Shown here in pieces: positions 26,027-53,810 of a DNA stretch of 64,000 bases. Within the stretch, counting starts at the first letter, position 1; the number at the start of each line of letters is the position of its first letter. This DNA is from Schlegelella aquatica (GTDB taxonomy: Bacteria; Pseudomonadota; Gammaproteobacteria; Burkholderiales; Burkholderiaceae_C). A model generated the notes under the pieces. The model saw only the letters and a program-made list of their open reading frames with translations. It was not told the origin of the DNA and searched no databases. The stretch is from NCBI RefSeq assembly GCF_026013905.1, contig NZ_CP110257.1, forward strand, positions 310,001 through 374,000. Reading direction: 5' to 3'. The position numbers and the translations under genes were made by a program.

Positions 26027-26102
<76 letters not shown>

Positions 26103-26110
26103 CCATTCAG

Positions 26111-26143
26111 CGCCCAACCCTCTCCGGTTGGGCGTTTTCGTTT
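26111..26143 (+). terminator. tRNA-Phe terminator
   Basis: CGCCCAACC (26111-26119) pairs with GGTTGGGCG (26126-26134), loop of six, followed by TTTTCGTTT. The same hairpin is duplicated at 35758. Confidence 0.92.
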
Positions 26144-26274
26144 CCGGGTTCCCCGACGCCGCGCGGGGTTCCGGGCCATTCTGCCTGCGCCGCGCCCCAC
26201 TGCCGGGGGCGCCTGAATGGGGCAGGTTCGACTCTGCTCCGCCCTCTCTTCTCTCGAAACCTGCGCCAACTTCT
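26111..26274 (+). repeat. Left copy of 164-bp direct repeat
   Basis: Begins with the tRNA-Phe terminator and runs to CCAACTTCT. Hand alignment with 35758-35921 gives 158 matches in 164 positions and no gaps. Just upstream, both copies also share CACCACCAT, which here is the tRNA 3' end. Confidence 0.93.
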
Positions 26275-26306
26275 TGGCGCAAGCGCACGCAAGCGGCCTT
26301 GCGCCA
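26275..26306. repeat. Hairpin at left island junction
   Basis: Immediately inside the left repeat, TGGCGCAAG (26275-26283) and CTTGCGCCA (26298-26306) form a perfect 9-bp inverted repeat with a 14-base loop. A second dyad, CGTGAC (26108+200 region, 26308-26313) and GTCACG (26324-26329), follows directly. Neither has a T-run, so termination is not the obvious role; a recombination or IS-end remnant is possible. Confidence 0.5.
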
Positions 26307-26361
26307 CCGTGACTTACACCTGCGTCACGCAGAGCAGTTGCCCATGGCGCTTGCTCGGGTG

Positions 26362-26718
26362 TCAGCCCGGTCGGTTCAACAGCGATCGGGGCCATTGCTG
26401 GAAGCTCATGCGGTCCAGCACCTGGTACTCGCAGTCCTCGTCGCTGAGGTTGTACAGCGACTGGATGAACAGCAGCCGCACCATCACCTCGGTGGGGTAC
26501 GGCGGGCGCCCGCCTTTGCTACGGTCAGCGCGAGGGCAGGCGGTGTCGACCCGGGCGGCAATGGCCGCGAAGTCGATCAGTTCGTCCATTGCTGCCAGGT
26601 TGGCAATGAAGCCGCCGAGCTTGGCTTGGCGCTGGTCCTGCACGAACAGGTCAGCGCCAGGCTGGTGACGCCAGAAAGACGAGGGCTTGATGCGCGGGGT
26701 GATCATGGGCGACATCAT
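26362..26718 (-). pseudogene. Truncated IS5-family transposase (N-terminal part)
   Basis: 118 codons matching the N-terminus of an IS5/IS1182-like DDE transposase: FVQDQRQAKLGGFIANLAAMD, then GGRPPYPTEVMVRLLFIQ and LSDEDCEYQVLDRMSFQ. Similarity stops at about base 26400, where native proteins continue toward the first catalytic Asp, and the frame ends in unrelated residues (WPRSLLNRPG). The whole DDE core and the far end of the insertion sequence are missing, so it is inactive. It lies at the left inner edge of the island, as expected for scars of insertion and deletion. Confidence 0.85.
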
Positions 26719-26805
26719 GCCGGCTCACTGGCGACAACGGTTAGGGAGGTTTCGAGAAGTGCCCCAAAGGCACTTGGGCTGGCTCGCCCCAACTGCTTCA
26801 CCTCA

Positions 26806-28188
26806 TCAGGTTCCGCCTGGGAACTCCAGGCAGAACCGGGTCCTGCCCTGCGCGGACGTCACGCTGATCGATCCTCCATGGGTTTGCATAATGGCGCGGG
26901 TAATCGCCAATCCCAGCCCTGCGCCGTCGGTTTCCGGATGTGACCGCGATGGGTCGGCCCGGTAAAAGCGATCGAACAGGCGCGGCAAGATCTTCGGCTC
27001 GATGTCCTCGCCGGTGTTCTCGACGCTCACCCGGGTGGCTTGGGAAGACTGGCTGATCTCGATCGTGACCTCGCCATGTGGCGGCGTGTGGCGCAGCGCG
27101 TTCGAAAGCAGATTGCTCAGGGCACGGCGGAACATCAAGCGATCACCGACGATCTCGCCCTCACCACGCTGAGCCAGTCTGACGCCCTTCTCATCGGCGA
27201 CCGCCTCATAGAACTCAATCAGGGCGTGCGTTTCCTCGGCTGCCGAGAAACGTTCCCGGTTCGGCAGCATCATCCCGCGTTCGGCCTTGGCCAGGAACAG
27301 CATATCGGACACCATGCGGCCCAGACGCTGCAGTTCCTCGGCATTGGAAGCCAGGATCTCCCGGTAGGTATCGGCATCGCGCCGGGTAGCCAACGCGACC
27401 TGGGTCTGGGTCAGCAGGTTGCTCAGGGGGGTGCGCAGCTCATGCGCCAGATTCGACGAGAACTCCGACAGTCGCGTGAACGCGTCTTCCAGCCGGTCCA
27501 GCATCTTGTTGAGTTCGTGAGCCAGATCGGCCATTTCGATGGGTACCGCCTCGACGGGCATGCGCTGGTGCAGCCGCTGGCTCGTGAGCGTGGTGGCTCT
27601 GGATTTCATGGCACGCAATGGCGCCAGCCCCTTGTACGCGGCAAACCAGCTCAGCAAGCCACAGATGACGATCGTCACGACGGCATAGGTCATCAGGGTG
27701 CGCCGCAACTCCAGCATGAACCGTGTGTGATGCGCCGTGTCCATGGCAACGAGGATGTCCAGCCGCGTCGTTGCGTCATAGGCTGGAATAACCCGGACAC
27801 GCATCCCGCGAAACGCCTGCCCTGCGTCGGCCCAATGGATCAGCGCGTCGTTGCCGTTGCCTTCATCCGCCGGTGACAGTTCGCGCGGGAGGCGAAATCC
27901 TTCGGACTGGAAGAGCGTTTCACCTTTCGAATCGTGGACGCTGACGTACAGCCCGTGATGGTGGCTCAATGCCTCACGCAGCAGCCACTTGGCGTCCTCG
28001 GTCGAATTGGATCGCGCCAAAATATCCTCGATCAGGTGCTGCTTGTCCTGCAGCGCCATGTGATCCAGCTCGATGAAATGCCGCTCGGATGCAGCGATGA
28101 CCAACAAGGCCAATCCAAACACCACAGCCCCAGCCGCCAACGTAAAGAAGAGGGTGAGCCGGGTCGTCAGTGACAGGGAGCGAAACAT
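26806..28188 (-). CDS. cusS: Heavy-metal sensor histidine kinase
   Basis: Inner-membrane kinase of the CusS/CopS/SilS group, 460 aa. TM1 about 10-32, a periplasmic sensor loop with several His residues (SHHHGLYVSVHDSKGE, AHHTRF), TM2 about 164-184, HAMP, HisKA with H249 (SSNLAHELRTPLSNL), and an ATPase domain with NLLSNALRHTPPHG and GAGLGLAITRAIM. It is expected to detect periplasmic Cu(I)/Ag(I) and phosphorylate CusR. The gene abuts cusR (0 bases between stop and start). Both lie divergent from the copper genes they should control. Confidence 0.93.
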   Translation of the reverse strand: MFRSLSLTTRLTLFFTLAAGAVVFGLALLVIAASERHFIELDHMALQDKQHLIEDILARSNSTEDAKWLLREALSHHHGLYVSVHDSKGETLFQSEGFRLPRELSPADEGNGNDALIHWADAGQAFRGMRVRVIPAYDATTRLDILVAMDTAHHTRFMLELRRTLMTYAVVTIVICGLLSWFAAYKGLAPLRAMKSRATTLTSQRLHQRMPVEAVPIEMADLAHELNKMLDRLEDAFTRLSEFSSNLAHELRTPLSNLLTQTQVALATRRDADTYREILASNAEELQRLGRMVSDMLFLAKAERGMMLPNRERFSAAEETHALIEFYEAVADEKGVRLAQRGEGEIVGDRLMFRRALSNLLSNALRHTPPHGEVTIEISQSSQATRVSVENTGEDIEPKILPRLFDRFYRADPSRSHPETDGAGLGLAITRAIMQTHGGSISVTSAQGRTRFCLEFPGGT

Positions 28189-28872
28189 TCAGCGCTCCTC
28201 CGGTGCTTCCAATACGTAACCCATGCCACGTACGGTGTGGATCAGCTTGACCTCATGACCCTCATCAATCTTCGCGCGCAAGCGCCGGATGGCCACCTCG
28301 ATCACATTGGTATCGCTGTCGAAATTCATGTCCCAGACCTGCGAGGCGATCAGCGAGCGGGGCAGAACCTCGCCATGACGGCGCATCAGCAGTTCCAGCA
28401 AGCCGAACTCTTTGGCCGTCAGGCTGATTCGTCGCCCGCCGCGTGAAACGCGTCGGCGCAGCAGGTCCAGTTCGAGATCGGCCACGCGCAGCACGGTGCT
28501 CTCGTTGCCACTGCGCCCCCGGCGCAGGATCGTGCGCACGCGGGCCAGCAATTCGGCAAAGGAGAAAGGCTTGACCAGATAGTCGTCCGCACCGAGTTCA
28601 AGGCCTTTGACCCGGTCTTCCACCTGATCGCGTGCGGTCAGGAACAGCACCGGCATCTGCAGGCCGCGATGGCGCAAGGACTGCAGTACCTGCCAGCCGT
28701 CGAGGCCGGGCAGCATCACATCCAGGATGACCAGGTCGTACTCGCCCTGCAAGGCCAGGTGCAGACCATCGGCGCCGTCTTGCGCCAGATCGACCACGAA
28801 ACCCGCTTCGCTCAAGCCTTGTCGCAGGTAGTCGCCCGTTTTGGGTTCATCTTCGACCATCAATATCTTCAT
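28189..28872 (-). CDS. cusR: Heavy-metal response regulator (OmpR type)
   Basis: A 227-residue OmpR-family regulator: receiver domain with acidic pocket ED (8-9), phospho-acceptor D51 ([14 protein letters not shown]) and K in [12 protein letters not shown], then a winged-helix DNA-binding domain with [22 protein letters not shown] and [11 protein letters not shown]. It should bind a dyad in the gap before the multicopper oxidase gene. First gene of the cusRS pair. Confidence 0.95.
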
Positions 28873-28934
28873 GCGGATGCTCGGCCGTATCCGATAAACG
28901 CCAGTGTGACGATTTTTAGCGCACCTGACGCATT

Positions 28935-28952
28935 GATGACAAACATGTAATC
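28935..28952. promoter_or_regulatory. Candidate CusR/CopR box
   Basis: In the divergent gap between cusR and the multicopper oxidase, GATGACAAACATGTAATC forms an inverted repeat, ATGACA-N4-TGTAAT with flanking G/C pairing (one mismatch). This resembles the TGACA-type and TTACA-type dyads bound by CopR/CusR regulators. The gap (28873-29047) is also AT-rich compared with the chromosome. Confidence 0.6.
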
Positions 28953-29047
28953 GTTCAGACAGCTTCCTGACAGCGGTGCGCCCCTAGCATCCCAGCACTC
29001 ATCCGCCGAATTAGAAACTCACTGCAGAAACTCTCCGCGAGGATCCC

Positions 29048-30907
29048 ATGCCCCCTTTGAGACCGTTTCATTCACCATGGCCGTCCGTGCCCTCGCGGCG
29101 GCGCTTCGTGCGCGGCTTGGTCGCCGGCGGCGTGATGGTCGGCCTGTCACCCTGGGTGCGTGCTGCGGCGCAGGGGCTGGCCGACACGCGCACGGGTGCG
29201 GCGCCCGTGCTCAGCGGCACGAACATCGACCTGGTGGTTGCCGAGTCGCCGGTCAACTTCACCGGCAGGCCAAGGATGGCGACCACCATCAACGGCTCCA
29301 TCCCGGCGCCAACGCTCAAACTTCGGGAAGGCGACACGGTCACCATCCGCGTCACCAACCGCCTGCGCGAGGCCACCTCGATCCACTGGCACGGGATCAT
29401 CCTGCCCTACCAGATGGACGGGGTGCCTGGGGTCAGTTTCCCGGGCATCGCCCCTGGCGAAACCTTCACCTACCAGTTTCGCCTCGAACAAACCGGCACC
29501 TACTGGTATCACTCGCACTCCGGCACGCAGGAGCAGACCGGCATGTACGGGGCCTTGATCGTCGAGCCGCGTGAGGCAGACCCCATCCGCGCCGACCGCG
29601 ACCATGTCGTGCTGCTGTCCGACTGGACCGACGAAGACCCCATGCGGGTGCTCGCCAAGCTCAAGGCGCAAAGCGACTACTACAACTTCAATCAGCCGAC
29701 GGCGATCGATTTTTTCCGTGACGTGGCCGACATGGGGCTCTCCCGCGCACTGGACAAACGTGCGATGTGGAACCACATGCGGATGAACCCGACCGACCTG
29801 GCCGATCTCTCGGGGGCGACATTGACCTACCTGATGAACGGCGTCACCCCTGCCGGCAATTGGACTGGCCTGTTCCGGCCGGGCGAGCGCGTGCGTCTGC
29901 GGTTCATCAACGGCGCGGCCAACACCTTCTACGACGTGCGCATCCCGGGGCTCAAGATGACGGTGGTGCAAAGCGACGGGCAGAACGTCGAGCCCGTCAC
30001 CGTCGATGAGTTCCGCTTCGGGCCGGGCGAGACCTACGACGTGATCGTCACGCCCCGAGAGGACGCCTACACGATCTTCGCGCAATCGATGGATCGAACC
30101 GGCTTCGCCCGCGGCACGCTCGCGGTGCGCGAGGGCTTGAACGCCGCCGTGCCTGCTCTCGATCCCGTCGAATGGCTCACCATGGCCGACATGATGGGCG
30201 CGATGGACCACGGCGCGATGGGGCATGGCGGCTCGGCCATGGGCGCGATGGACCACGGCGCGATGGGCCACGACATGCCGGGCATGAAGCACGACATGTC
30301 CGGCATGAACCATGGCGCGATGGCCATGGATCACGGCCAGCACGCGATGCATGGCATGACAGGCGGCGCGATGGCCAAGCCCAGCGCCACGGTCCGTCAC
30401 GCACGCACGGAATACGGCCCAAGCACGGATATGCGGGTGGACATGCCGCGCACCAATCTTGACGATCCGGGCATTGGCCTGCGCAACAACGGCCGGCGCG
30501 TGCTGACGCTGGCCGACCTCAAAACGATCGGCGGCCCTCTCGATCCTCGCGGGGCCGAGCGCGAGATCGAGCTGCACCTCACCGGCAACATGGAGCGCTA
30601 TACCTGGTCGCTCGACGGCCTCGAGTTCGGCAAGAGCACGCCGGTGCATCTGAAGTATGGCGAGCGGGTGCGCATCATCCTGCACAACGACACGATGATG
30701 ACCCACCCGATGCATTTGCATGGGCTGTGGAGCGAGGTGGAAACACCCGACGGGCAGTTCCTGGTGCGTCGCCACACCATCCCGGTGCAGCCCGCGCAGC
30801 GCGTCAGCTTCCTCGTGACCGCCGACGCCCTGGGGCGTTGGGCCTGGCACTGCCACCTGATGTTGCACATGGACATGGGCATGTTCCGTGTGGTGGTCGT
30901 GTCATGA
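29048..30907 (+). CDS. copA: Periplasmic multicopper oxidase (CopA/PcoA type)
   Basis: A 619-residue copper-resistance laccase-like oxidase. Twin-arginine leader (SRRRFVRGLVAGG, 16-28) for folded export. Cupredoxin domains carry the four copper-ligand blocks: H113/H115 (HWHG), H155/H157 (YHSHSG), H553/H556/H558 (HPMHLHG) and H601-C602-H603 with H607 and M612 (HCHLMLHMDMGM). Between domains 2 and 3, residues 379-442 form a Met/His-rich insertion with repeated MDHGAMGH units, a known Cu(I)-binding feature of PcoA/CopA. The role is to oxidise Cu(I) and bind copper in the periplasm. Its stop overlaps the copB start (ATGA). Confidence 0.95.
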   Translation: MPPLRPFHSPWPSVPSRRRFVRGLVAGGVMVGLSPWVRAAAQGLADTRTGAAPVLSGTNIDLVVAESPVNFTGRPRMATTINGSIPAPTLKLREGDTVTIRVTNRLREATSIHWHGIILPYQMDGVPGVSFPGIAPGETFTYQFRLEQTGTYWYHSHSGTQEQTGMYGALIVEPREADPIRADRDHVVLLSDWTDEDPMRVLAKLKAQSDYYNFNQPTAIDFFRDVADMGLSRALDKRAMWNHMRMNPTDLADLSGATLTYLMNGVTPAGNWTGLFRPGERVRLRFINGAANTFYDVRIPGLKMTVVQSDGQNVEPVTVDEFRFGPGETYDVIVTPREDAYTIFAQSMDRTGFARGTLAVREGLNAAVPALDPVEWLTMADMMGAMDHGAMGHGGSAMGAMDHGAMGHDMPGMKHDMSGMNHGAMAMDHGQHAMHGMTGGAMAKPSATVRHARTEYGPSTDMRVDMPRTNLDDPGIGLRNNGRRVLTLADLKTIGGPLDPRGAEREIELHLTGNMERYTWSLDGLEFGKSTPVHLKYGERVRIILHNDTMMTHPMHLHGLWSEVETPDGQFLVRRHTIPVQPAQRVSFLVTADALGRWAWHCHLMLHMDMGMFRVVVVS

Positions 30908-31848
30908 AACTCATCCCAAGTAGATTCGCCATGAAACCCTGCTCTCTCTTCACGGCGGCGCTGGTGCTGCTCGGTGCGGCGCCCGTCTGGGCGCAAACAC
31001 CGACGGAAGGCGGCGCCCATGCCGCGCACTCGGGCGCGGCTGCCGCCCCAACGCGCGCCCCATCGTCCGCGAACGCCACCATGGACCACGGCAGCATGCG
31101 CATGCAAGGCGGAGCCGCCCCCGCCGATGCCCGCGATCCGCACGCGTATGCCAATGGCTTGACCTTGGAGTCGGGCCCGTACGCATTTCCTGGGCCACGG
31201 CAACTGCGGCTGTCCGATGAACATGCGTTTGGCAGCGTGCTCCTCGATCGCCTGGAGCGCGTCGACACGAAGGACGGCAACGCCACCGCCTATGAGGCGC
31301 AAGCCTGGTTCGGCGGCACCTACGACCGCCTGGTCCTCAAGGCCGAAGGGGACGTCGCCGACGGCAAACTGGAGGAGGCACGCACCGAGGTCCTTTGGGG
31401 CCACGCGGTGGCTCCGTTCTGGGACACCCAACTCGGGGTGCGGCAGGACAGCGGCGCCGGCCCTGACCGGACTTGGCTCGCTGTGGGCATCCAAGGGCTC
31501 GCCCCGTACTGGTTCGACGTCGATGCCACGGCCTACGTCGGCGGCGCGGGACGCACGGCACTGCGCCTGTCGGGCGAGTACGAGCTCCTGCTCACCCAGC
31601 GCCTGATTCTGCAGCCCCGCATGGAAGTCAATCTGTATGGCCGGCGCGATGAAGCGCGTGGCCTGGGAAGTGGGCTGGCCGATGCGGCGGCAGGCCTGCG
31701 CCTGCGTTACGAGTTCTCGCGCCAGTTCGCGCCCTATGTCGGCGTCGAATGGGCGGGCAAGTTTGGACAGACGGCGGATTTTGCGCGCGCCGAAGGGCAG
31801 CGCACCCGGCAAACGCGGTATGTGGCGGGCGTGCGCCTGTGGTTCTAG
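30904..31848 (+). CDS. copB: Outer-membrane copper-resistance protein CopB
   Basis: A 314-residue CopB/PcoB. A signal peptide (MKPCSLFTAALVLLGAAPVWAQ begins at the second Met, 30931) leads into a short His/Met-rich N-terminal part (GGAHAAHSG, MDHGSMRMQG) and then the conserved barrel, with FGSVLLDRLE, WFGGTYDRLVLKAEGD and the final aromatic LWF typical of outer-membrane strands. The start at 30904 (ATGA overlap with copA) gives coupled translation; the alternative at 30931 gives the cleaner signal peptide. CopB is thought to bind or export copper at the outer membrane. Its N-terminal metal-binding region is shorter than in Pseudomonas CopB. Confidence 0.92.
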   Translation: MKLIPSRFAMKPCSLFTAALVLLGAAPVWAQTPTEGGAHAAHSGAAAAPTRAPSSANATMDHGSMRMQGGAAPADARDPHAYANGLTLESGPYAFPGPRQLRLSDEHAFGSVLLDRLERVDTKDGNATAYEAQAWFGGTYDRLVLKAEGDVADGKLEEARTEVLWGHAVAPFWDTQLGVRQDSGAGPDRTWLAVGIQGLAPYWFDVDATAYVGGAGRTALRLSGEYELLLTQRLILQPRMEVNLYGRRDEARGLGSGLADAAAGLRLRYEFSRQFAPYVGVEWAGKFGQTADFARAEGQRTRQTRYVAGVRLWF

Positions 31849-31901
31849 CAGCGCCCACGCACAACCACGATCTCATTCACGAATCCCATCAGGAGCATCC
31901 A

Positions 31902-32417
31902 ATGATGAAGAAAACCTTGAGCGTTTTGGCGCTGAGCGCGTTGCCTGTGTTGGCGCTGGCCGCCGGCAATCATCAGGGCGGCCATGGCATGGCCGGGCAC
32001 GACATGCAAGGCATGCACGGTTCGATGCACGGTGGCGCATCACACTCCAACGTCGGCAAGCCAGGCGATCCCGCCAAGGTCGACCGCACCATCGAGGTGG
32101 TCATGGACGACACGATGCGGTTCACGCCCGCCACCATCACGGTCAAAAAGGGCGAGACGATCCGCTTCTTTGTCAAAAACGCGGGCAAGGTGCCGCATGA
32201 AATGGTGGTCGGCTCCTTGCAGGAGCTCAAAGAACACGCTGAGATGATGCGCAAGATGCCGCAGATGCAGCATGCCGAGCCGAACATGGTGACGCTGCAG
32301 CCCGGCCAGCGCGGCGGGCTGGTCTGGCTGTTCGATCAGCCCGGCACGGTGGACTTCGCTTGCCTCGTCCCCGGCCATATGGAAGCGGGCATGGCGGGCA
32401 AGATCGTCGTCGAGTAA
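31902..32417 (+). CDS. Periplasmic cupredoxin (CopI-like)
   Basis: A 171-residue exported blue-copper protein. The signal (MMKKTLSVLALSALPVLALA) is followed by a Met/His-rich segment (GGHGMAGHDMQGMHGSMHGG, 27-46) and a cupredoxin domain. Type-1 copper ligands fit H99 (VPHEMV), C154 (DFACLVPGH), H159 and M164. Such proteins in cop clusters of betaproteobacteria (CopI/CopC-like roles) are needed for copper tolerance. A strong AGGAG ribosome site precedes ATG 31902. It lies third in the plus-strand copper unit. Confidence 0.9.
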   Translation: MMKKTLSVLALSALPVLALAAGNHQGGHGMAGHDMQGMHGSMHGGASHSNVGKPGDPAKVDRTIEVVMDDTMRFTPATITVKKGETIRFFVKNAGKVPHEMVVGSLQELKEHAEMMRKMPQMQHAEPNMVTLQPGQRGGLVWLFDQPGTVDFACLVPGHMEAGMAGKIVVE

Positions 32418-32441
32418 GCAGCATCACCGGGAGTCCTTGTC

Positions 32442-32924
32442 ATGCACCAAACCGGTGATCAACCGTTCCCCCGGCGGCGCAGGCTGCTGCTGGCGGTGCT
32501 TGCGCTGAGTCTTCCCTCCCTGGCACCAGCCGCCGCACCGCAGACGCTTGCCGTGCAGGTGTGGAAGGACCCGAACTGTGGGTGTTGCAAGGACTGGATT
32601 GCCCACCTGGAGAAAAGCGGATTCCGCGTGAATGCCGTCGACCAGGGCAACGGCGCGGCCCGCGCTCGCCTCGGGATGCCGCAGAAATTCGGTTCCTGCC
32701 ATACGGCCCTGATCCAGGGCTATGTGATCGAAGGCCACGTACCCGCCACGGACATCCAGCGGCTGCTCAAGGAAAAGCCCCAAGCCCTGGGCTTGGCGGT
32801 GCCGGGCATGCCCATTGGTTCACCCGGCATGGACGGGCCGGTGTATGGCGGCCGACGTGATGCCTACCAGGTCTTGCTGGTTGGGAAAGACGGGTCGGCA
32901 CAAGTGTTCAGTTCCCATCCATGA
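32442..32924 (+). CDS. DUF411 metal-binding protein
   Basis: A 160-residue exported protein of the DUF411 family. N-terminal basic residues and a hydrophobic segment (RRRRLLLAVLALSLPSLAPAA) form a signal peptide. The signature KDPNCGCCKDW puts three cysteines close together (C46, C48, C49), and a further Cys occurs in GSCHTALI. The fold is thioredoxin-like, and the cysteines are thought to bind Cu(I). The gene follows the cupredoxin by 24 bases in the same direction, consistent with periplasmic copper buffering. Confidence 0.88.
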   Translation: MHQTGDQPFPRRRRLLLAVLALSLPSLAPAAAPQTLAVQVWKDPNCGCCKDWIAHLEKSGFRVNAVDQGNGAARARLGMPQKFGSCHTALIQGYVIEGHVPATDIQRLLKEKPQALGLAVPGMPIGSPGMDGPVYGGRRDAYQVLLVGKDGSAQVFSSHP

Positions 32925-32943
32925 AGAAACCCCTCACCCGGCG

Positions 32944-33189
32944 ATGAGCGCGACGCATCATGATCACCACCCCGACACGCGTGGCTCGTCCGGCCTGAGC
33001 CGGCGTGTCAGGATCGCGTTGCTGATGGTGGCCCTCATCGGCGGCTTCTACCTGCTGCGCGAGCACTGGAGCCATGTCGCAGGCAATTGGGTGTACCTGT
33101 TGCTGCTAGCGTGCCCGCTGATGCACCTGCTGCATGGCCACGGCAGGCATGGCGCACTGCCCGACAACCGCCCCGACAAAGAGGCCTGA
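32944..33189 (+). CDS. DUF2933 small membrane protein
   Basis: An 81-residue protein with a His-rich start ([14 protein letters not shown]), two hydrophobic helices (about 25-41 and 47-63) and a His-rich end ([10 protein letters not shown]). The His clusters on either side of the hairpin membrane segment suggest metal binding. It matches the DUF2933 proteins found beside copper ATPases. Spacing is 20 bases after DUF411 and 4 bases before the ATPase, so coupled expression is likely. Biochemical role not known. Confidence 0.85.
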
Positions 33190-33193
33190 AGCC

Positions 33194-35551
33194 ATGGACC
33201 TGCGATCTGCGCACGACCACCGCCGACACACCCACGACCACCCGAGCGCACAGCAGCGGGCCGAAGGTCTGAAGGACCCTGTCTGCGGCATGGACGTGAC
33301 CGCGCAGTCCGAGCACCACGTCGAACACGCAGGCCGGCGCTTTTATTTCTGCAGCGCCCGGTGCCGGGCGAAGTTCGTCGCCGAACCGGCGCGCTATGCC
33401 CACAGCGGCCACGCGCCTTCGCCTGTCGAAGCGCCGGCGCTGGCCGCAGGAACCATCTACACCTGCCCCATGCACCCCGAGATCCGGCAGGATCACCCCG
33501 GTCATTGTCCGAAGTGCGGCATGGCGCTGGAGCCGGTGCTGCCCGATCTCCAAGAAGAAGAGAGTCCCGAGCTGCGCGATTTCCAGCGCCGCTTCTGGTA
33601 CACCCTGCCGCTGACCGTCATGGTCACTGTGCTTGCCATGTTCGGCCACCAGTTGCATTGGTTCGAGGCGCGCACACAGACCTGGATCGAACTCGTTCTG
33701 TCCCTGCCCATCGTCCTGTGGGCGGGTCGGCCGTTCTTCGTGCGCGGCTGGCAGTCCGTGGTCCATCGCAGCCCGAACATGTGGACCCTGATCGGGCTGG
33801 GCACCGGGGCGGCGTTCGTCTACAGCGTGGCGGCGACCGTGGCCCCACAACTGTTCCCGGACTCGTTCGTGTCCATGGGACGGGTCGCGGTGTACTTCGA
33901 GGCGGCGGCGGTGATCATTTCCCTGACCCTGCTGGGGCAGGTACTGGAACTCAAGGCGCGTTCGCAGACCTCGGCCGCCATCAAGTCCTTGCTCGGACTG
34001 ACCCCCAAGACCGCCCGGCGCCTTCGCGACGATGGCACGGAAGAGGACGTGCCCCTGACGCACATCCATGTCGGCGATCGGCTGCGCATTCGACCCGGCG
34101 AAAAGGTTCCGGTCGATGGCACCGTCCTCGAGGGCCGCAGCGCCGTGGACGAATCGATGCTGACGGGCGAGCCCCTGCCCGTGACCAAGCAGGCAGGCGA
34201 CAAGGTCATCGGCGCGACACTCAATACCAGTGGCGCGCTCGTCATGGTCGCCGAACGTGTCGGCGCGGCGACCATGCTGTCCCAGATCGTGCAAATGGTG
34301 GCGCAGGCGCAGCGGTCCAAGGCGCCGATGCAGCGCATGGCCGATGTCGTGGCGGGCTATTTCGTGGTCGCGACGGTGTCCATCGCCGTGCTGACCTTTT
34401 TTGCCTGGGGCCTGTTCGGGCCGGAACCGCGCTGGGTTTTTGGCCTCATCAACGCCGTGGCTGTGCTGATCATCGCCTGCCCCTGCGCGCTGGGCTTGGC
34501 CACGCCCATGTCGATCATGGTGGCGACCGGGCGAGGGGCTACGCAGGGGGTGCTGTTTCGCGATGCCGCCGCGATCGAGAAAATGCGCCAGGTCGATACC
34601 CTGATCGTCGACAAGACCGGCACATTGACCGAGGGCCGGCCGCGCTATCAGACGACGATCGCAGCCGAAGGCTTCACCGCCGACGAGGCCTTGCGACTGG
34701 CTGCCAGCCTCGACCAGGGCAGCGAGCACCCGTTGGCCGAAGCCATCGTCACGGCCGCGCGCGAGCAGGGCCTGGTGCTCTCACGCGCCGAGGAGTTCGA
34801 CTCGCACTCAGGCATCGGCGTGCGCGGGCGCGTCGATGGACATGCCGTGGCACTGGGCAACACCGCGCTGATGGAACAGCTCGGTGTGGACGTGCGGCCA
34901 TTGGCCGAGCGGGCGGAGGCGCTGCGCACCGAGGGGGCCAGCGTCATGTATCTGGCCGTCGATCACGCGCTCGCCGCAGTCCTGGCCGTCGCCGACCCGG
35001 TGAAGAAGACCACACCGCAAGCGCTGGCGTCGCTGCGCGCGGAGGGCTTGCGCGTCGTCATGGCCACGGGCGACGGTCTGACCACGGCCAAGGCCGTGGC
35101 GGCGCGCTTGGGCATCGATGAGGTGCATGGCGAGGTCAAGCCCGCCGACAAACTGCAACTGGTGGAGCGGCTGCAGCGCGAGGGGCGTATCGTTGCGATG
35201 GCTGGTGACGGCATCAATGATGCCCCGGCCTTGGCAAAGGCCGACGTCGGTATCGCCATGGGCACCGGCACCGACGTGGCGATGAACAGCGCACAGATCA
35301 CGCTCGTCAAGGGTGACCTGCGCGGTATTGCGGTGGCGCGCGCCTTGTCAGTGGCCACGGTCCGCAACATGAAGCAGAACCTGATGTTCGCCTTTCTCTA
35401 CAACGCACTGGGCATTCCCATTGCGGCCGGCGTGCTGTATCCGCTCACCGGTTGGCTGCTTTCACCGTTGATCGCCGCCCTGGCGATGAGTCTCAGCTCC
35501 GCATCGGTGATCGGCAATGCGCTGCGTTTGCGCGGCGTCCGTCTTGTCTGA
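33194..35551 (+). CDS. copA: Cu(I)/Ag(I)-exporting P1B-type ATPase
   Basis: A 785-residue heavy-metal ATPase that exports Cu(I) from the cytoplasm. Instead of ferredoxin-like HMA domains it carries a His-rich head, a YHS domain with DPVCGMDV and YFCSARC, and a heavy-metal-binding module YTCPMHPEI...[12 protein letters not shown]. These N-termini are typical of the SilP/CopA branch on resistance islands. Membrane helices follow, then TGE (LTGEPLP), the CPC metal gate C429/C431 ([11 protein letters not shown]), phosphorylated D473 (DKTGTLTEG), SEHPLAEAI and [10 protein letters not shown]. All catalytic motifs are intact. It ends the copper unit. Start ATG 33194 was chosen over an upstream in-frame ATG inside DUF2933. 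Confidence 0.96.
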
Positions 35552-35757
35552 ACACGAGGATCGTCGCGCGTGCCGTGGTGGGTGCTGGTTGCACTCCCAG
35601 ATCGCTGGGTCTGTCGTATCGGTTGCCACCCGACGTTGGACACCTGATCCCTATCGAGGCCTGGAATGCTCTCGACCACGGCACTGAGGGCCCGGGATTG
35701 CTCAATCGTTGAGAGAGTGGGTTGGATTCCGGTCGCGTCTGCACCACCATCCTTCCA
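35552..35757. other. Noncoding island edge with possible tRNA 3' remnant
   Basis: 206 bases without a credible gene. Near its end, GGTTGGATTCC (35730-35740 region) differs from a canonical tRNA T-loop block GGTTCGATTCC by one base and is followed 10 bases later by CACCACCAT, matching the tRNA-Phe 3' end context at 26098-26106. The T-stem pairs badly, so it would be a decayed fragment. This fits a duplicated tRNA end from ancient integration but is weak on its own. Confidence 0.35.
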
Positions 35758-35790
35758 CGCCCAACCCTCGCCGGTTGGGCGTTTTCGTTT
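35758..35790 (+). terminator. Duplicated terminator hairpin
   Basis: CGCCCAACC (35758-35766) pairs with GGTTGGGCG (35773-35781), followed by TTTTCGTTT. With one loop substitution (T to G) it is identical to the tRNA-Phe terminator and could end the copper transcript. Confidence 0.85.
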
Positions 35791-35921
35791 CCGGGTTCCC
35801 CGACACCGCGCGGGGTTCCGGGCCATTCTGCCTGCGCTGCGCCCCACTGCCGGGGGCGCCTGAATGGGGCAGGTTCGACTCCGATCTGCCCTCTCTTCTC
35901 TCGAAACCTGCGCCAACTTCT
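35758..35921 (+). repeat. Right copy of 164-bp direct repeat
   Basis: Same orientation and length as 26111-26274 with six substitutions. It contains the terminator hairpin again and ends two bases before the aqpS stop codon, so the arsenic operon starts exactly at the repeat edge. Confidence 0.93.
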
Positions 35922-35923
35922 GA

Positions 35924-36652
35924 TCAGCGAGGCGCAGCGCGGGCCGAGCGGGTGTCGCCTTCGGCCGTCCCAGAAGCCTCGATCACGTTGGGATGTCCAG
36001 CCGGATGGAGCCGCGCCTCGAAGGCGTTGTGGATGGCGAGGCCGATCGCTGCTCCCACCAGCTCGGCCAGCATGAAGCCGGGAGCGCTGGCAGGCGCGAT
36101 GCCAGCAAAGCTGTCGCTGAACATGCGACCGACGACAGCGGCCGGATTGGCGAAGGACGTGGATGCAGTGAACCAGTAGGCCGCGCCGATATAGCTGGCG
36201 ACCATTGCCGCCGCGCGGCCCGCTGGCGCGCGCAGGATCACCAGCAGCAGCCCTGCAGTCGCCACGGCCTCCGCGATCCACTGGCCGGTACCCGTCCGCA
36301 TCTTGGTAGAGAACTGCAGGACGGCCAAGTCGAACATGGCGTGCGCCAGCCACGCACCGAGGATCGCGCCGAACAACTGCGCGGCGATGTACGGGAGCAG
36401 CGCAGTCCTCGGCAGCTCGCCGCGCCACGCCATCACGGCACTCACCGCCGGATTGAAGTGCGCCCCGCTGATCGGGCCGAACACTTCAATCAGGATGTAT
36501 AGCCCGCCGACCGTGGCGAGCGTATTGGCCAGCAGCGTGACAGCGACGTTGCCGCCGGCCAAGCGCTCGGCCATGATGCCCGAGCCGATCACGACGGCCA
36601 GCAGCAGCGCGGTACCGAGCGCTTCGCCAGCCAACTTGCGGGGCAGGTCCAT
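35924..36652 (-). CDS. aqpS: Aquaporin-family channel of an arsenic operon (AqpS-like)
   Basis: A 242-residue MIP channel with six hydrophobic helices and both pore boxes, HFNPAVSAV and FANPAAVVG. In rhizobial ars operons AqpS replaces a pump and lets As(OH)3 formed by ArsC leave down its gradient; the same role is inferred here from context. The start was set at ATG 36652 (MDLPRKLAGEALGTALL). The longer frame to 36901 adds an 83-residue non-membrane, Arg-rich segment read antiparallel to part of arsC and is rejected. It is the last gene of the arsR-arsI-arsC-arsC-aqpS unit. Its stop lies two bases from the right repeat. Confidence 0.9.
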   Translation of the reverse strand: MDLPRKLAGEALGTALLLAVVIGSGIMAERLAGGNVAVTLLANTLATVGGLYILIEVFGPISGAHFNPAVSAVMAWRGELPRTALLPYIAAQLFGAILGAWLAHAMFDLAVLQFSTKMRTGTGQWIAEAVATAGLLLVILRAPAGRAAAMVASYIGAAYWFTASTSFANPAAVVGRMFSDSFAGIAPASAPGFMLAELVGAAIGLAIHNAFEARLHPAGHPNVIEASGTAEGDTRSARAAPR

Positions 36653-36654
36653 CG

Positions 36655-37161
36655 TCAGCTCTTCGCGATCTTGGCCAGCGCCTGCTGGAGGTCTGCCTTG
36701 CTCATCGTCTCCAGCGGGAGTTGCAGCAGCTGCAGCATGCGGTAGCCGATGGCCTGGCGGGTCAGTTCGAACGCGCGGCGCTTGCCGTCGTCGCCGCCCT
36801 CGGCGTTCGACGGATCGGGGTAGCCCCAGTGCACCTTGACCGGCTGCTCCCCTGTGCCGCCGAAGAACACCGGGCACTGTTCGGCCGCAGCACTGTCGCA
36901 CACCGTGATGACGATCGACAGCGGCGGCGCATCGTCGCCACTGAACTCGTCCCAGCTCTTGCTCCGGTAGCCGGTGGTGTCCACGCCGGCGTTGTGTAGC
37001 GCCTCCAGCGCGAACGGGTTGACGCGGCCGCTGGGCGCACTGCCGGCGCTGTAGGCCCGCACGTCCTTGCCAAGCTTCTTTGCCCAGTGGTTGAGCATGC
37101 CTTCACCGAGAACGCTACGTGCGGAGTTGTGGGTACAGAGGATGAGAACGTTGATCGTCAT
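36655..37161 (-). CDS. arsC: Arsenate reductase, LMW-PTP/thioredoxin type (second copy)
   Basis: A 168-residue cytoplasmic arsenate reductase. N-terminal phosphatase loop CTHNSAR (C9, R15; CX5R) and the redox pair C88 and C96 (VCDSAAAEQCPV) are the three cysteines of the thioredoxin-coupled mechanism. Conserved AYSAGSAPSG and WGYPDPSNAEG segments support the call. It is 21 bases downstream of another arsC and 2 bases before the aqpS start. The two ArsC copies are clearly diverged (CTHNSAR versus CTGNSAR loops), so they are not a recent duplication. Confidence 0.93.
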   Translation of the reverse strand: MTINVLILCTHNSARSVLGEGMLNHWAKKLGKDVRAYSAGSAPSGRVNPFALEALHNAGVDTTGYRSKSWDEFSGDDAPPLSIVITVCDSAAAEQCPVFFGGTGEQPVKVHWGYPDPSNAEGGDDGKRRAFELTRQAIGYRMLQLLQLPLETMSKADLQQALAKIAKS

Positions 37162-37182
37162 GGGTGTGCTGGTGTCATATCG

Positions 37183-37677
37183 TCATTGCTGGCCGATGTC
37201 GCGCACGGCGTTCTGCAGCGACATCCGGTCGAGGGAATCATGAGGCAGTGCCAGCAGGAGCTCGATGCGGCGCTTGAGCAAGTAGCTCGCGTCGAGAAAA
37301 GCCTTGCGCTTGGCCTCGTCGCTGCCTTCAACGGCGGCGGGATCAGGCATGCCCCAGTGCGCTGTCACCGGTTGGCCCGGCCAGACGGGGCACACCTCGC
37401 CGGCGGCTTTGTCGCAGACGGTGAAGACAAAATCCAGCGGTGGCGAGTCGGGCGTCGCGAACTCTTCCCAGCCCTTGCTGCGGTAGCCGGTGGTCGGCAG
37501 CCCGAGCTGTGCCAGGGCCTGCAGGGTAAAGGGATTTACCTCGCCTTTTGGAGTGCTACCGGCCGAGTAGGCGCGAAAGCGGCCGCGACCCATATGGTTC
37601 ATCAGGGCCTCGGCCAGGATCGACCGGGCCGAGTTGCCGGTGCAGACCAACAAGACGGTGTAGACGCGATCAATCAC
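37183..37677 (-). CDS. arsC: Arsenate reductase, LMW-PTP/thioredoxin type (first copy)
   Basis: A 164-residue arsenate reductase with CX5R loop CTGNSAR (C12-R18), redox cysteines C88 and C96 (VCDKAAGEVCPV), and HWGMPDPAAVEG. The start was placed at GTG 37677 (read as Met, then IDRVYTVLLVCTG), which overlaps the stop region of arsI by 9 bases. A TTG at 37695 would add six residues. Reduced arsenite can leave through AqpS. Product length is normal for the family. Confidence 0.92.
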   Translation of the reverse strand: MIDRVYTVLLVCTGNSARSILAEALMNHMGRGRFRAYSAGSTPKGEVNPFTLQALAQLGLPTTGYRSKGWEEFATPDSPPLDFVFTVCDKAAGEVCPVWPGQPVTAHWGMPDPAAVEGSDEAKRKAFLDASYLLKRRIELLLALPHDSLDRMSLQNAVRDIGQQ

Positions 37678-37685
37678 GGCCAGCC

Positions 37686-38159
37686 TCAGCAGCAAGAGGA
37701 CGAGGGCTTGACAGCGATGCCGACCGGCTTGCCACGGGGCGTCGGTGCGCAGCAGACACCGCCAGCCTCGCTCTGCGCCGCCTTCTCGCTGAACACCGGG
37801 ATGGTGGCCAGCGTACGGAAGTGCTCCCAGGCAACGCCTTGCGGATCGGTGACCCAGTGCTTCTCGCTCTGGGCATAGCAGCAGGTGGTCTGGCCTTCAT
37901 CGAACAGTGCCATGTCGGCAGCCTGGGCGCGTGCCTTCAACTCGGCGAGTTCCTCGGCATTGTCGGTTTGGAAGCCGAGATGGTCGACGCCCGGTTTGCC
38001 GCCGCGCGTCGAGATCGCGAAGTTGATCCTCGGGTCGTCGAGCATCCACTTGGCGTAGTCGCTCTCCAGGCGGGTGGGCTCGGCGCCGAACAGCTTGGAG
38101 TAGAAGGCCACGCTCTGAGCGAGGTCCTCGACGTGGACATGAACGTGGAAGCGCTTCAT
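37686..38159 (-). CDS. arsI: ArsI/CadI-type dioxygenase (C-As lyase family)
   Basis: A 157-residue vicinal-oxygen-chelate protein. Iron ligands of ArsI are matched by H5, H60 and E112 (VHVHV, GVDHLGF, AWEHF), and the substrate-binding vicinal cysteines by C93-C94 (QTTCCYA). ArsI cleaves the C-As bond of trivalent methyl and aromatic arsenicals. The C-terminus is longer and carries further cysteine pairs (GVCCAP, SSSCC), as in many ArsI/CadI proteins. Annotated relatives are also called CadI, so cadmium or another soft metal cannot be excluded. Second gene of the operon, 12 bases after arsR. Confidence 0.88.
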   Translation of the reverse strand: MKRFHVHVHVEDLAQSVAFYSKLFGAEPTRLESDYAKWMLDDPRINFAISTRGGKPGVDHLGFQTDNAEELAELKARAQAADMALFDEGQTTCCYAQSEKHWVTDPQGVAWEHFRTLATIPVFSEKAAQSEAGGVCCAPTPRGKPVGIAVKPSSSCC

Positions 38160-38171
38160 CGTGGTTCCTTT

Positions 38172-38495
38172 TCAACAGTTGCAGGAGGTGGCGGCTTCGG
38201 GGAGACAGACCTCGCCCTGGCAGCAGTTCTCGGTGAGGTAGCCCAGCAGCGCACTCATGTGCTCGAACGACGCCCGATAGACCAAGTGGCGCCCCTGACG
38301 CTCCTGCGTCACCAGGCCGGCGTTCATCAGCTCCTTGAGGTGGAAAGACAGCGTTGCCGGCGGGATACCGGTGGCTTCGGCAATGACCCCAGGCGTCATG
38401 CCTTGCGACCCGGCGACCACCAGCGTCCGGAAGATCTGCAGGCGGTTACTCTGGGCGAGCGCGGCAAGGGATCGGACGACATCTTTCTCTTTCAT
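38172..38495 (-). CDS. arsR: ArsR-family repressor
   Basis: A 107-residue winged-helix repressor, first gene of the arsenic operon. The DNA-reading helix lies in ATGIPPATLSFHLKELMNAGL (about 41-61). The arsenite site is C-terminal, with C91-C92 and C97 (TENCCQGEVC), plus C105 and C107 at the very end. This layout resembles the C-terminal Cys triad of the Acidithiobacillus ArsR type, not the ELCVCDL site in the DNA-binding helix of plasmid R773 ArsR. It should repress its own operon and release on As(III). Confidence 0.93.
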   Translation of the reverse strand: MKEKDVVRSLAALAQSNRLQIFRTLVVAGSQGMTPGVIAEATGIPPATLSFHLKELMNAGLVTQERQGRHLVYRASFEHMSALLGYLTENCCQGEVCLPEAATSCNC

Positions 38496-38516
38496 GTTTC
38501 TATGATAGTCGAAATA
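38496..38516. promoter_or_regulatory. Candidate ArsR operator/promoter
   Basis: Immediately before the arsR start, TTTC (38497-38500) and GAAA (38511-38514) flank TATGATAGTC in an AT-rich dyad, and the minus strand offers TATCAT as a possible -10. If that -10 is used, transcription would begin almost at the ATG, a leaderless start. No good -35 is visible. Confidence 0.45.
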
Positions 38517-38723
38517 TGGAAGCGATGCACTCCACCCGCCTGGCGAAAGTGGCGGCCAGCCAATGAGGTGTGATGTACGGGATGCGGCCGCCGTAGAACG
38601 TGAACCCGCCGCAGCAGCAGCGCGGGCCGTACCGCCGCTCCCCGCAAGGGCCGGGGTTGATGCTCCTCAACCTGCGGCCGCTGCCTGTCGCGAGACTGAA
38701 AAAGTTTCATCAGCCGAGCCGCC

Positions 38724-41544
38724 GTGCATCCGACCGCCTCGCCGACGCAAGCGCTCCCCGCGGCGCGTCCGGGCGCGGACGCTGCGGGGCTGCTGTCGCT
38801 GGTGGAGGCGACGCTACGGGAGCTGCGCCCGGGCGCCGCGGAGCTGCCGCCGGTCACGCTTGCCAGCCGGCTCGACCAGGACCTGAGGCTCGACAGCCGC
38901 GCCCGCATGGAACTGCTGCAGCGCGTCGAGCGGGCCTTCGGCGTCGCCCTGCACGAGGACGCGCTGGGGGCGGCGGAAACCGTGGCGGACCTCTTGCGTG
39001 CGGTGGAGCGCGGGCACCCGCTGGGGTCGGCCGTGGCCAGGCCCCCGCCTCCCGCACCGTCCCCAGGGACTTGGGCGGGCACACCGCAGACCGCTTCCAC
39101 CTTGCTGGAGGTGCTGGCGTGGCACGTGCGAGAGCATGCCGATCGCGTGCAGGTGGCGGTGCTGGAGGAGGGAGACGAGCGCCCCATCACCTACGGCGCG
39201 CTTGCGGCCGATGCGGCGGCGGTCGCCGCCGGGCTGCAGTCGCTGGGCGTCGCGCCGCGGGAGACCGTGGCGATCATGCTGCCCACCTGCCCCGAGTACT
39301 TCGGCACCTACCTGGGCATTCTGATGGCCGGAGCGATTCCGGTACCGATCTACCCGCCGGGGCGGCCCTCGCAGATCGAGGAGCACGTGCTGCGGCACGG
39401 CGCGTTGCTGGACAATGCCCGCGCTGTGGCCCTCGTCACCGTGCCGCAGGCGCGGATGGTCGCCCGGCTGCTCCAGGCCCGGGTGGCTGGCTTGCGCGCC
39501 GTCGTCACACCGCAGCAGCTGGCCGCGCGGGGCGGGGTGCCGGCGCCTGCGGCCGTGGCGGGCGAGGACGTTGCCTTCATCCAGTACACCTCGGGCAGCA
39601 CCGGCAGTCCCAAGGGGGTGGTGTTGTCACATGCCAACCTGCTGGCCAACATCCGCGCCATGGCGCAAGCCATCGAGGCGAGCCCACGCGACGTGTTCGT
39701 CAGCTGGCTGCCCCTGTACCACGACATGGGCCTCATCGGCGCCTGGCTGGGCAGCCTCTACGTTGGCATGTCGCTGGTGGTCATGTCACCGCTGGCCTTC
39801 CTGGCGCGGCCCCTGCACTGGCTGCAGACGCTGCAGCGATGGGGAGGGACGCTGTCGGCGGCGCCCAACTTCGCGTACGAACTGTGTCTGCGGCGAATCG
39901 ACGATGCTGCCCTGGCCGACCTCGATCTGCGCTCGGTCCGCGCACTGTTCAACGGGGCCGAAGCGGTCAGCGCAGCCACGGTGCGCCGCTTCAGCGAGCG
40001 CTTTGCCACCTGCGGCCTGCGTGCCGAGGCCATGGCACCTGTCTACGGGCTGGCGGAGGCTTCGGTCGGCCTGCTGTTCCCGCCGCTCGGGCGGGCGGCG
40101 CCCGTGGATGCTTTGCAGCGCGAGCCGTTCAGCCTGGAAGGCCGCGCGTTGCCCGCCGCTGCCGATGACCCGAACGCTCTGCGCTTCGTCGGCTGCGGCA
40201 GACCCTTGGCCGGCCATGAGGTCCGCATCGTCGATTCGCAGGGCCGCGAGCTCGGCGAGCGCGTGGAGGGCCGGCTGGAGTTCCGCGGCCCATCGGCGAC
40301 GCGCGGCTACTTCCGCGATCCGCAGAAAACCGCGCAGCTGTTCCACGACGGCTGGCTGGACACCGGTGACCGCGCCTATGCGGCCGCGGGCGACATCTAC
40401 ATCACCGGCCGGGTGAAGGACATCGTCATTCGCGGCGGGCGCAACCTCTACCCGGAGGAGATCGAGGATGCGGTGGGGCGTGTGGAGGGCATCCGCAGGG
40501 GTTGCGTGGCGGTGTTCGGCAGTCCCGATGCCGCCACCGGCACGGAACGCCTGGTTGTGCTGGCGGAGGCCAGGCCCGGCGCCGCGGCTGGGCGAAGCGG
40601 TGACGCGGGCCGTGATCGACACCATCGGCGAACCGCCGGATGAAGTGGTGCTCGCCCCGCCGCACACCGTGCTCAAGACCTCCAGCGGCAAGATCCGGCG
40701 CTCTGCGTGCAAGGCACTGTACGAGCGCGGGGGCGCCCATCTCGGCCCTGCGCCCGCACACCTGCAACTGCTGCCGCTGGCAGCCGGCGCGGCTTGGCTT
40801 CGACTGCAGCACGTCCTCGGCGCCGGGGGGGCAGCCTGCTGTTCGCGGGGTATGCGACCGCGCTGTTCGGACTTCTCGCGCCGCCCACCTGGCTGCTGGC
40901 GGTCGCTCAGTCCAATCCCGCACGCGCCTGGGCCATCTGCCGTGCGTCCGCGCGCGCACTCCTCGCGCTCACCGGCATGACGCCGCGGGTCGAGGGCCTG
41001 CAGAACATCCCTGCGGGGGCGTGCGTGATCGTGAGCAACCATGGCAGTTACCTCGACGGGGTCGTGCTGGTGGCGGTCTTGCCGAGGCCGTGCGACTTCA
41101 TCGCCAAGGCCGAACTGCGGCAGCAGCGCATCGCCGGCCCCTTCCTGCGCCGGCTCGGCGCTGGCTTCGTCCAACGCTTCGACCTGCGCCGCGCGGTGCA
41201 GGACGCGCAGGCGCTGACGGCGCATGCACGGCGCGGACACGCACTGGTGGTGTTCCCCGAAGGGACCTTCAGGGCTGCCCCCGGCTTGCTGCCGTTCCAC
41301 CTGGGGGGCCTTCCTTGCCGCCGCGCAGGCGCAGGTGCCGGTCGTGCCCCTGGTCCTGCGCGGCAGCCGAGCCGCGCTGCCGGACGGTAGCTGGCGGCCG
41401 CGCCGCGCCCGGTTGGAAGTCCACGTCCTGCCGCCGCTGCCACAGCCAGGGGAAGGCGACCTGTTCGCGCGCGCGGTGCGGCTGCGAGATGCGGCTTACA
41501 CGGCGATCGCCGGGCGGCTCGAACCGGCGCAAGACGCGCCGTGA
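38724..41544 (+). pseudogene. ACP / AMP-ligase / PlsC acyltransferase fusion, three frameshifts
   Basis: The intact ancestor would be about 940 aa. Frame from GTG 38724: acyl-carrier-like domain (pantetheine Ser in RLDSRARMELL, S58), then a fatty-acyl-AMP ligase with YTSGSTGSPKGVV, LPLYHDMGLIG and KDIVIRGGRNLYPEE. Near 40570-40585 the reading changes frame (continues LGEAVTRAVIDTIG and KTSSGKIRRSAC), changes back near 40825 at a run of seven G, continuing FAGYATALFGLLAPP and the PlsC motifs VSNHGSYLDG and FPEGTFRAAPG, and changes again near 41305 at a run of six G (GAFLAAAQAQVPVVPLV to the stop). Frames alternate 0-1-0-1. Either a decayed lipid-activating gene or assembly errors at G runs. 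Confidence 0.8.
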
Positions 41545-41581
41545 GCCTGCGGCCCGGCCCACGGCGGATGAGGAGACAAGC

Positions 41582-42540: not shown

Positions 42541-42663
42541 CGCGGCGTCGTGGCTGCACCCGATCATGACGGGCACGGCTCCTCGGCCGGACGACCGCTC
42601 GTTGCACGGCCACGGCCGGGTTTCGTTCTTGAGCCTAGCCCCTCACTTCCGACAGAGTCCACG

Positions 42664-43839: not shown

Positions 43840-44041
43840 GCGACATCGGCCACCAGGCGTTCCAAATTCTTGTGTTGCGGGTGTAAACGGCGGGGGCGAA
43901 GACCTGGCCCCGCACTGAGCCCCACGGGTCGCCGCGGCCTCGGTTTGACCTGGCTCAGAGTCGCGGCAGTCGTCGGCCCTATCGTGGGCGGGTGGCGCGC
44001 CGAGCGGGCCCGGCCCGCGTTGCCATTCGCGCCTCGAACTC

Positions 44042-44311: not shown

Positions 44312-44398
44312 GACAAGCAGGGCGGCGGGACGGCGCCGCCCTGACCCGGCACGCAGCCGGGGCGCCGCGGTCCATGCAGACGGGCCGGTGGGCACGCA

Positions 44399-44404
44399 TA
44401 CAAT
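44399..44404 (+). promoter_or_regulatory. Candidate yajC -10 element
   Basis: TACAAT 38 bases before the yajC GTG in a GC-rich gap of 130 bases. The -35 region is poor, so the site is tentative. Confidence 0.35.
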
Positions 44405-44441
44405 GGAACGTTCCCCATCGTCCGTTACTGGAGACTCAAGC

Positions 44442-53797: not shown

Positions 53798-53810
53798 GCG
53801 CGGGGGCCGC

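Follow-up and report, generated by a model that had tools for sequence, protein, structure and literature searches.

The genomic islands at the ssrA gene of Dehalococcoides are, going by the part of their report that was available, the nearest precedent found for the locus described here. That part describes islands which stand in tandem at the 3' end of the RNA gene and have a serine recombinase module; another 15 islands lack it, and the authors suggest that these might be cis-mobilizable and mobilised by accretion (PMC3146451). The repeat of these islands is 20 bp of ssrA and the insertion is placed in the T-loop; the same part uses the term CIME for elements with att-type ends and no recombination genes, stacked beside elements having them (PMC3146451). 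A further relative is the Acidithiobacillus phage AcaML1 (JX507079), for which Table 2, in the available part of its report, gives the target 'srrA', here read as ssrA, and direct repeats '10, 10' (PMC3826726). In the present study, we analysed a stretch of 64,000 nucleotides from Schlegelella aquatica (contig NZ_CP110257.1, positions 310,001 to 374,000; the whole stretch is called the window), in which a copper-resistance gene set lies behind a tRNA-Phe gene between two direct repeats. We consider it probable, at about two chances in three, that window positions 26103-35749 are an integrated copper element without a recombinase of its own, which uses the attachment system of AcaML1-type serine-recombinase phages. 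The boundaries of this element are formed by the following features:

26027-26102, plus strand: tRNA-Phe(GAA), called by ARAGORN and Rfam; the host gene, whose 3' end CCACCA (26097-26102) is the element start
26103-26274, plus strand: left end of the element (left repeat), a terminator-like hairpin at 26109-26136 and then about 130 bp
35690-35749, plus strand: right end of the element, 60 bp, ending in CACCACCA (CCACCA), directly before the right repeat
35750-35921, plus strand: right repeat, a terminator-like hairpin at 35757-35782 and then about 130 bp; interpreted as the left end of a following element

The repeats proper (26111-26274 and 35758-35921) are 164 nucleotides (nt) long each, lie on the same strand and are identical at 158 of 164 positions, which bears out the initial annotation of this DNA in its claim of two equally long repeats of the same orientation with about 96% identity. 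A BLAST search with the left repeat against its own genome, a single contig of 3.35 Mb, recovered the right repeat with E = 2.5e-75. After ungapped extension to 178 nt (26097-26274 and 35744-35921), 168 of 178 positions were identical, and the extended left repeat opens with CCACCA, the final 6 nt of tRNA-Phe. The repeated unit had been described as the terminator plus about 130 bp and not the tRNA 3' end; the downstream identity agrees with this, but the last 6 nt of the tRNA are included as well. A classical tRNA-site island was rejected as an explanation, since the identity covers only these 6 tRNA nucleotides and then runs downstream, with no integrase nearby. The element (26103-35749) has a G+C content of 0.65; the values for 1-26026 and 44441-64000 are 0.70-0.71.

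As in AcaML1, the boundary core of the element is CCACCA at the 3' end of an RNA gene, and the left end opens with CCACCA and a terminator-like hairpin; AcaML1 carries a large serine recombinase. The circular AcaML1 record starts with CCACCATTTA and a hairpin and ends in ...GGTTCCGTGTTCCGCCACCATTTA, with CCACCATTTA at both termini. In contrast, AcaML1 is a phage with its own recombinase, whereas the window element has copper cargo only and another right-end sequence. For this reason we do not class it as an AcaML1-type phage, and it is by analogy only that we propose that both may use the same enzyme. Set against the Dehalococcoides islands, as far as the available part describes them, the window-type element has CCACCA as its core, tRNA-Phe, tRNA-Ala and ssrA as its targets, a terminator carried by the left end, and another spread. 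Like a CIME in the sense of that part, the window island has attachment-type CCACCA junctions on both sides (26103-26274 and 35690-35749) which recur in relatives; it differs in that the window-type element is near-identical across genera and that its mobilisation is only presumed. The comparisons described below show that the ends are shared, that more than one RNA gene serves as target, that the element passed from genus to genus and that there are tandem junctions. CIMEs and tandem accretion are reportedly known from work on streptococcal ICESt-type elements. Among the matches listed in open-licence literature, there was no report on copper islands of Caldimonas, Tepidimonas or Tepidiphilus.

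We found that the 60-bp right end is 60/60 identical in Tepidimonas ignava, Caldimonas manganoxidans, Caldimonas caldifontis, Tibeticola and two Tepidicella. Its 46-nt core was exact at 16 places in 84,980 species genomes, namely Tepidicella (2), Tepidiphilus (4, one of them a metagenome-assembled genome, MAG), Tepidimonas (3 in 2 species), Thermomonas hydrothermalis, Tibeticola, two Caldimonas and three MAGs titled Gammaproteobacteria, Porticoccaceae and Chloroflexi, of which the Chloroflexi one could be a binning error; IMG/VR gave two more records with the exact core. Sequence beyond CACCACCA was present at 17 of these 18 places, with 15 non-identical flanks, many of which open with a hairpin and a T run. 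In relatives, too, right ends can be followed by unit-type left ends, as in 4 of the 15 flanks (L131, L141, L143, L144). Upstream of the right end, the fetched stretch holds copper DNA in 12 of the 18 (in L141 after other genes) and ends within 0.75 kb in 4, and in the two others, L139 (T. ignava, with L063) and L147 (IMG/VR), BREX-like genes stand in place of copper. In these cases DUF6079/AAA genes are bounded by the copper-type right end, a different cargo with the same end; the BREX label is an assumption that draws on the DUF6079 match. Tepidimonas fonticaldi has, behind the right end, 39 nt which by eye are those that follow ssrA in a congener, as is expected of a displaced flank.

A reading of 35690-35749 as a tRNA pseudogene was rejected, since ARAGORN called no tRNA there and the same 60 bp stand at other right ends. 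By eye, GGTT or a similar motif frequently stands about 24 nt ahead of CCACCA in the right ends of different elements (L071, L091, L076, L155 and others), which recalls a tRNA T-arm; in AcaML1-type ends the distance is 19 nt, as in tRNA-Phe. This motif is a possible recombinase half-site.

In Tepidimonas ignava (G032), the unit and the copper genes lie directly after ssrA and are 97% identical to the window over 9.4 kb. CusR of the two bacteria is 99% identical, as against 54% for RsmB, 55% for NtrY and 69% for NtrX (core names by eye). In another genus, unit and copper genes thus stand side by side at another RNA gene. The initial annotation had proposed a copper island at tRNA-Phe and had named copper genes in the same place in all relatives, as vertical core genes, as evidence against it; the 97% match at the T. 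ignava ssrA speaks for an acquired island, and the values of CusR, NtrX and NtrY speak against vertical core genes.

Comparison of C. caldifontis with Tibeticola sediminis placed the element boundaries at CCACCA on both sides. A complete element of 12,412 bp is present in Tepidiphilus margaritifer, in the order hairpin left end, MerR-type regulator, cation-transporter-like gene, short EAL-like piece (these genes by eye), copper set and copK, the last identified by a Pfam CopK match in the sister copy. Its counterpart in the gammaproteobacterial MAG KatS3mg121 matches it with 97.85% identity across 12,417 bp; near-identical elements apparently exist across genera and, by record titles, across classes. 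No recombinase was found among the called genes of the complete element, and the T. margaritifer genome gave 0 matches to PF00239 and 0 to PF07508; the gene maps come from a home-made codon-model gene finder that misses foreign genes such as cusS and DUF411 of the window. The window copy aligns from position 2538 of the complete element, plus 38 bp further left. It is without the regulator/cation-transporter-like segment and without 11566-12352 (copK), and it has another left end and an insertion sequence (IS) fragment. It is probably a shortened derivative with a swapped left end, in good agreement with the earlier idea of a scar of a larger element, here one of 12.4 kb.

A second type of left end, 1637 bp long, is 99-100% identical in 7 places and intact in 8 loci, of which 3 have it after tRNA-Phe, 3 after an AcaML1-type right end and 2 after another CCACCA-ending sequence. 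Scanning all fetched loci for CCACCA plus terminator gave 30 distinct RNA-gene ends (tRNA-Phe 18, tRNA-Ala 8, tmRNA 4). As tRNA-Phe was the reason for fetching the loci, these counts show no target preference. The scan gave 39 further rows, which include some overlapping registers of one site and a few that look like chance.

The connection with serine recombinases was examined in viral_contigs, where the best 80 of at least 599 confirmed stretches of a recombinase search were kept; 37 of these 80 loci have at least 4.5 kb ahead of the recombinase. ARAGORN found a tRNA in 9 of the 80 (7 Phe, 2 Ala), and by eye 8 of these 9 are followed by the CCACCA-hairpin left end, the ninth, L255, being ambiguous. 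Searching for either of two motifs, unit tail and copper right end, gave matches in 3 of the 80 prophage loci; most prophage ends are too diverged for such a search. AcaML1 was the best-listed phage-record match to the recombinase (58%). In T. ignava, an AcaML1-like prophage lies right of the copper-type right end, with 94.8% for the recombinase and 97.8% over 312 bp for the left end. The IMG/VR record L148 is 94.8% identical to AcaML1 over 7.6 kb, and its genes shown are identical to those of T. ignava. Furthermore, copper-type left ends are immediately preceded by AcaML1-type right ends in C. caldifontis and KatS3mg121 (about 87% over 90 bp) and in T. fonticaldi (34/34 bp). Copper elements and AcaML1-type phages thus have docking sites in common, and either can lie on either side of the other.

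A recombinase-bearing neighbour in tandem is present in T. ignava, and none was found in the genome of the window; C. caldifontis has a recombinase-bearing element about 53 kb from the copper element on the same contig. Genome G183 has a segment of about 77 kb that contains a serine recombinase, DUF2924, a terminase-like gene and tail and capsid genes (the last two by eye); tRNA-Phe plus unit bounds it on one side, a second CCACCA plus unit on the other. DUF2924 accompanies the recombinase. It was found in 10 of 17 genomes with copper genes or a copper-type right end and in 0 of 14 controls (two rows of the same genome taken as one, and neither the viral record nor G183 included).

It is unlikely that a different site-specific recombinase, such as a tyrosine integrase, acts on the CCACCA ends while serine-recombinase phages merely share the hot spot. 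For such an enzyme one may cite tyrosine recombinase matches in 15 of 17 searched genomes or records, and the fact that T. margaritifer, Tibeticola and the window's genome carry the element with no PF07508 match; the window's genome gave 0 matches to PF07508 and 0 to PF00239, and its 2 matches to PF00589 (tyrosine recombinase) both lie about 1-2 Mb from the island. The difference between the copper and AcaML1 right ends points the same way. On the other hand, the prophages with these left ends, and AcaML1 itself, carry a serine recombinase, and, where the contig of a copper element is known, no PF00589 match lies on it at less than 35 kb from the element, a weak argument as the assemblies are fragmented.

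Under the preferred reading, recombination would take place in or beside CCACCA at the 3' ends of tRNA and tmRNA genes. With its left end, the arriving element would supply its own terminator and leave the RNA gene with its 3' end and a terminator; the former flank would be displaced to the right of the right end (35690-35749) of the element. Further elements could enter at the same CCACCA and so build up tandem stacks of islands, and on this view the right repeat would be an older neighbour's left end and not a target duplication. Movement would probably proceed via the recombinase of a co-resident phage. We infer mobilisation by the phage enzyme, and with it the acting enzyme, the exact crossover position and continued excision.

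The 164-bp unit is common at tRNA-Phe, yet portable, because congeners vary beyond the tRNA, and because it also follows ssrA and tRNA-Ala and moves with the copper genes. A comparison with sister genomes had been proposed; among 8 congeners, G003 and G008 match the tRNA only, G001 matches the tRNA and 41 nt, and G002, G004 and G007 match the tRNA and about 90 nt at 84-87%; the whole unit is present in G005 and G006 only, at 79-80%. The flank sequences of G001 and G003 were also inspected. The earlier description of the unit as the natural flank of tRNA-Phe is not borne out in that form, as two congeners share the tRNA only and the unit also stands at ssrA and tRNA-Ala. A search through 399 family genomes, limited to two scored candidates in each, found unit or right end in 20, the window's genome counted. 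Of the 28 places listed there, ARAGORN found tRNA-Phe before 12, tRNA-Ala before 1 and tmRNA before 2, and in two of these 15, both in G264, the match is limited to the first 42-45 nt; at most of the remaining places the unit follows a non-RNA sequence ending in CCACCA. A plasmid search for the unit gave one weak record, Eleftheria terrae, with three places. We take the 178-bp repeats of E. coli tyrT (rtT) to be of similar length and to start likewise at a tRNA 3' end; the window unit differs as an island end, not a tandem repeat in a tRNA operon, and the Rfam scan of the window for such a family gave only the tRNA above threshold.

The genome-wide repeat search, also proposed earlier, gave two further partial copies in the window's genome by BLAST, C1:227583-227696 (93%, 114 nt) and C1:1254726-1254786 (87%, 61 nt), the latter being the terminator part of the unit at a tRNA-Ala. 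The former (L003, C1:226083-229196) is the first 114 bp of the unit, is preceded by sequence ending in CCACCA and sits between HsdS/HsdM-like genes and a dienelactone-hydrolase-like open reading frame (ORF; both by eye). It is perhaps another island end, with type I restriction cargo. The copy at tRNA-Ala, together with many partial copies in G002, G004 and G007, would suit a unit that is a dispersed terminator-type repeat without a role in mobility, with the copper genes between two copies by chance. We regard this as very improbable and rejected a passive terminator repeat, because the full unit accompanies the copper genes from genus to genus, and many genera share an exactly conserved right end. 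Dispersal without islands had been named as evidence against the island; the unit is indeed dispersed, but the copies examined are mostly island or prophage ends, many partial copies of G002, G004 and G007 lying outside that set.

In G264 (L087, L095), one and the same GTGCGCC... sequence stands behind the terminator of tRNA-Phe and behind that of ssrA; we assume that it resembles a group II intron start. In Tepidicella xavieri and Tepidimonas fonticaldi (L097, L144), an IS110-family transposase and a ParDE-like pair (by eye) lie in or beside the unit. C. manganoxidans has a second, diverged copper cluster, 71-80% identical (L064, G006 C57), with a diverged unit on the same contig.

Several results weigh against the proposed phage-type integration. 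DUF2924 is absent in 7 of the 17 genomes, among them the window's genome, Tibeticola and T. margaritifer, and the copper right end is not that of AcaML1. Unit-like sequence stands at tRNA-Phe in 5 of the 8 congeners. The window-type left end is common to G000, G032 and G391 (165-173 of 178 identical); apart from one identical pair, its first 44 nt are identical between copies at 36-41 positions and its other 134 nt at 127-132, and in T. ignava the first 44 nt match the ssrA flank of a congener. For this left end, a crossover after the terminator or a replacement by homologous exchange is possible. One test for an empty site, in Tepidiphilus, gave none that was clean, the 95% MAG flank match starting 70 bases in with no adjoining tRNA. 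The exact joint of right end and second left end, expected of an excised or circular form, gave 0 matches in viral_contigs, a search of low power in which the left end alone also gave 0. Finally, none of the four plus-strand CCACCA in 35900-44600, where the right end of the arsenic-type neighbour would lie, has a terminator after it (by eye).

The initial annotation had suggested homologous recombination between unit copies as the event that placed the copper genes at tRNA-Phe. The left end common to three genomes, with its more site-specific first 44 nt, is in favour of this, as are the unit copies on both sides in the window and genome G138, which has the unit and an IS fragment without copper genes. 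We think it quite unlikely for the element as a whole: 8 loci have a different left end at the same CCACCA junction and their genomes share the right end, and 11 of the 15 flanks after the right end are not unit-type, so that homology on the right side is often missing. The suggestion may still apply to the left end in the window.

It is suggested, tentatively and with less than even confidence, that AcaML1-type phages and recombinase-free cargo islands with interchangeable ends form a shared docking network, in which the phage enzyme would move both between distant hot-habitat bacteria. The cargo would include copper, BREX-like defence, type I restriction and arsenic genes. The left end would be a portable terminator and the right end a tRNA-T-arm-like half-site; with these ends, the elements would dock at the 3' CCA of several RNA genes and stack in tandem. 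If true, the proposed integration would explain a near-identical copper set without integration genes in distant bacteria at different RNA genes. It would offer a defined pair of ends, open to test with one known phage enzyme, and a signature for recombinase-free cargo islands that are missed by searches for integrases and tRNA-derived repeats.

The contents of the element and its right-hand neighbour are as follows:

26396-26767, minus strand: IS fragment, 372 bp, N-terminal part of a transposase, DUF772, 97-98% identical to three other places in the genome
26806-28188, minus strand: cusS-like sensor kinase (Pfam PF21085 CusS, HisKA, HATPase)
28189-28872, minus strand: cusR-like response regulator (Pfam PF00072 and PF00486)
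29048-30907, plus strand: multicopper oxidase, CopA type (Pfam PF07732, PF00394, PF07731)
30931-31848, plus strand: CopB (Pfam PF05275)
31902-32417, plus strand: cupredoxin (Pfam PF00127/PF13473)
32442-32924, plus strand: DUF411 protein (Pfam PF04214)
32944-33189, plus strand: DUF2933 small protein (Pfam PF11666)
33194-35551, plus strand: heavy-metal P-type ATPase (YHS, HMBD, E1-E2, HAD; Pfam)
35924-38495, minus strand: arsenic-type set of MIP channel, two LMWPc (ArsC-like), glyoxalase-fold protein and ArsR-type regulator (Pfam)

The initial annotation had the repeats bracket cusSR and the copper set with no integrase, excisionase or complete IS. The Pfam types of the 8 copper genes agree, none being a recombinase (transfer genes were not searched for separately), and the only IS present is the internal fragment, which we take to be of the IS5 family. 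Composite transposition by this IS, or repeats acting as paired transposon ends, is highly improbable. The fragment does lie inside the left part of the element, but it is single and internal where two intact IS at the ends are needed, and an IS-driven composite transposon was rejected on this ground. Moreover, the repeats are direct and start at an RNA-gene 3' end, and the copper elements of C. caldifontis and Tibeticola have the same right end without an IS fragment. The arsenic-type set, directly right of the right repeat, has a G+C content of about 0.66, and among the other fetched loci it has weak relatives only (L145). Further right, 41743-43839 is a single ORF in which a truncated AMP-binding domain is fused in frame to an MFS transporter, with the look of a deletion joint.

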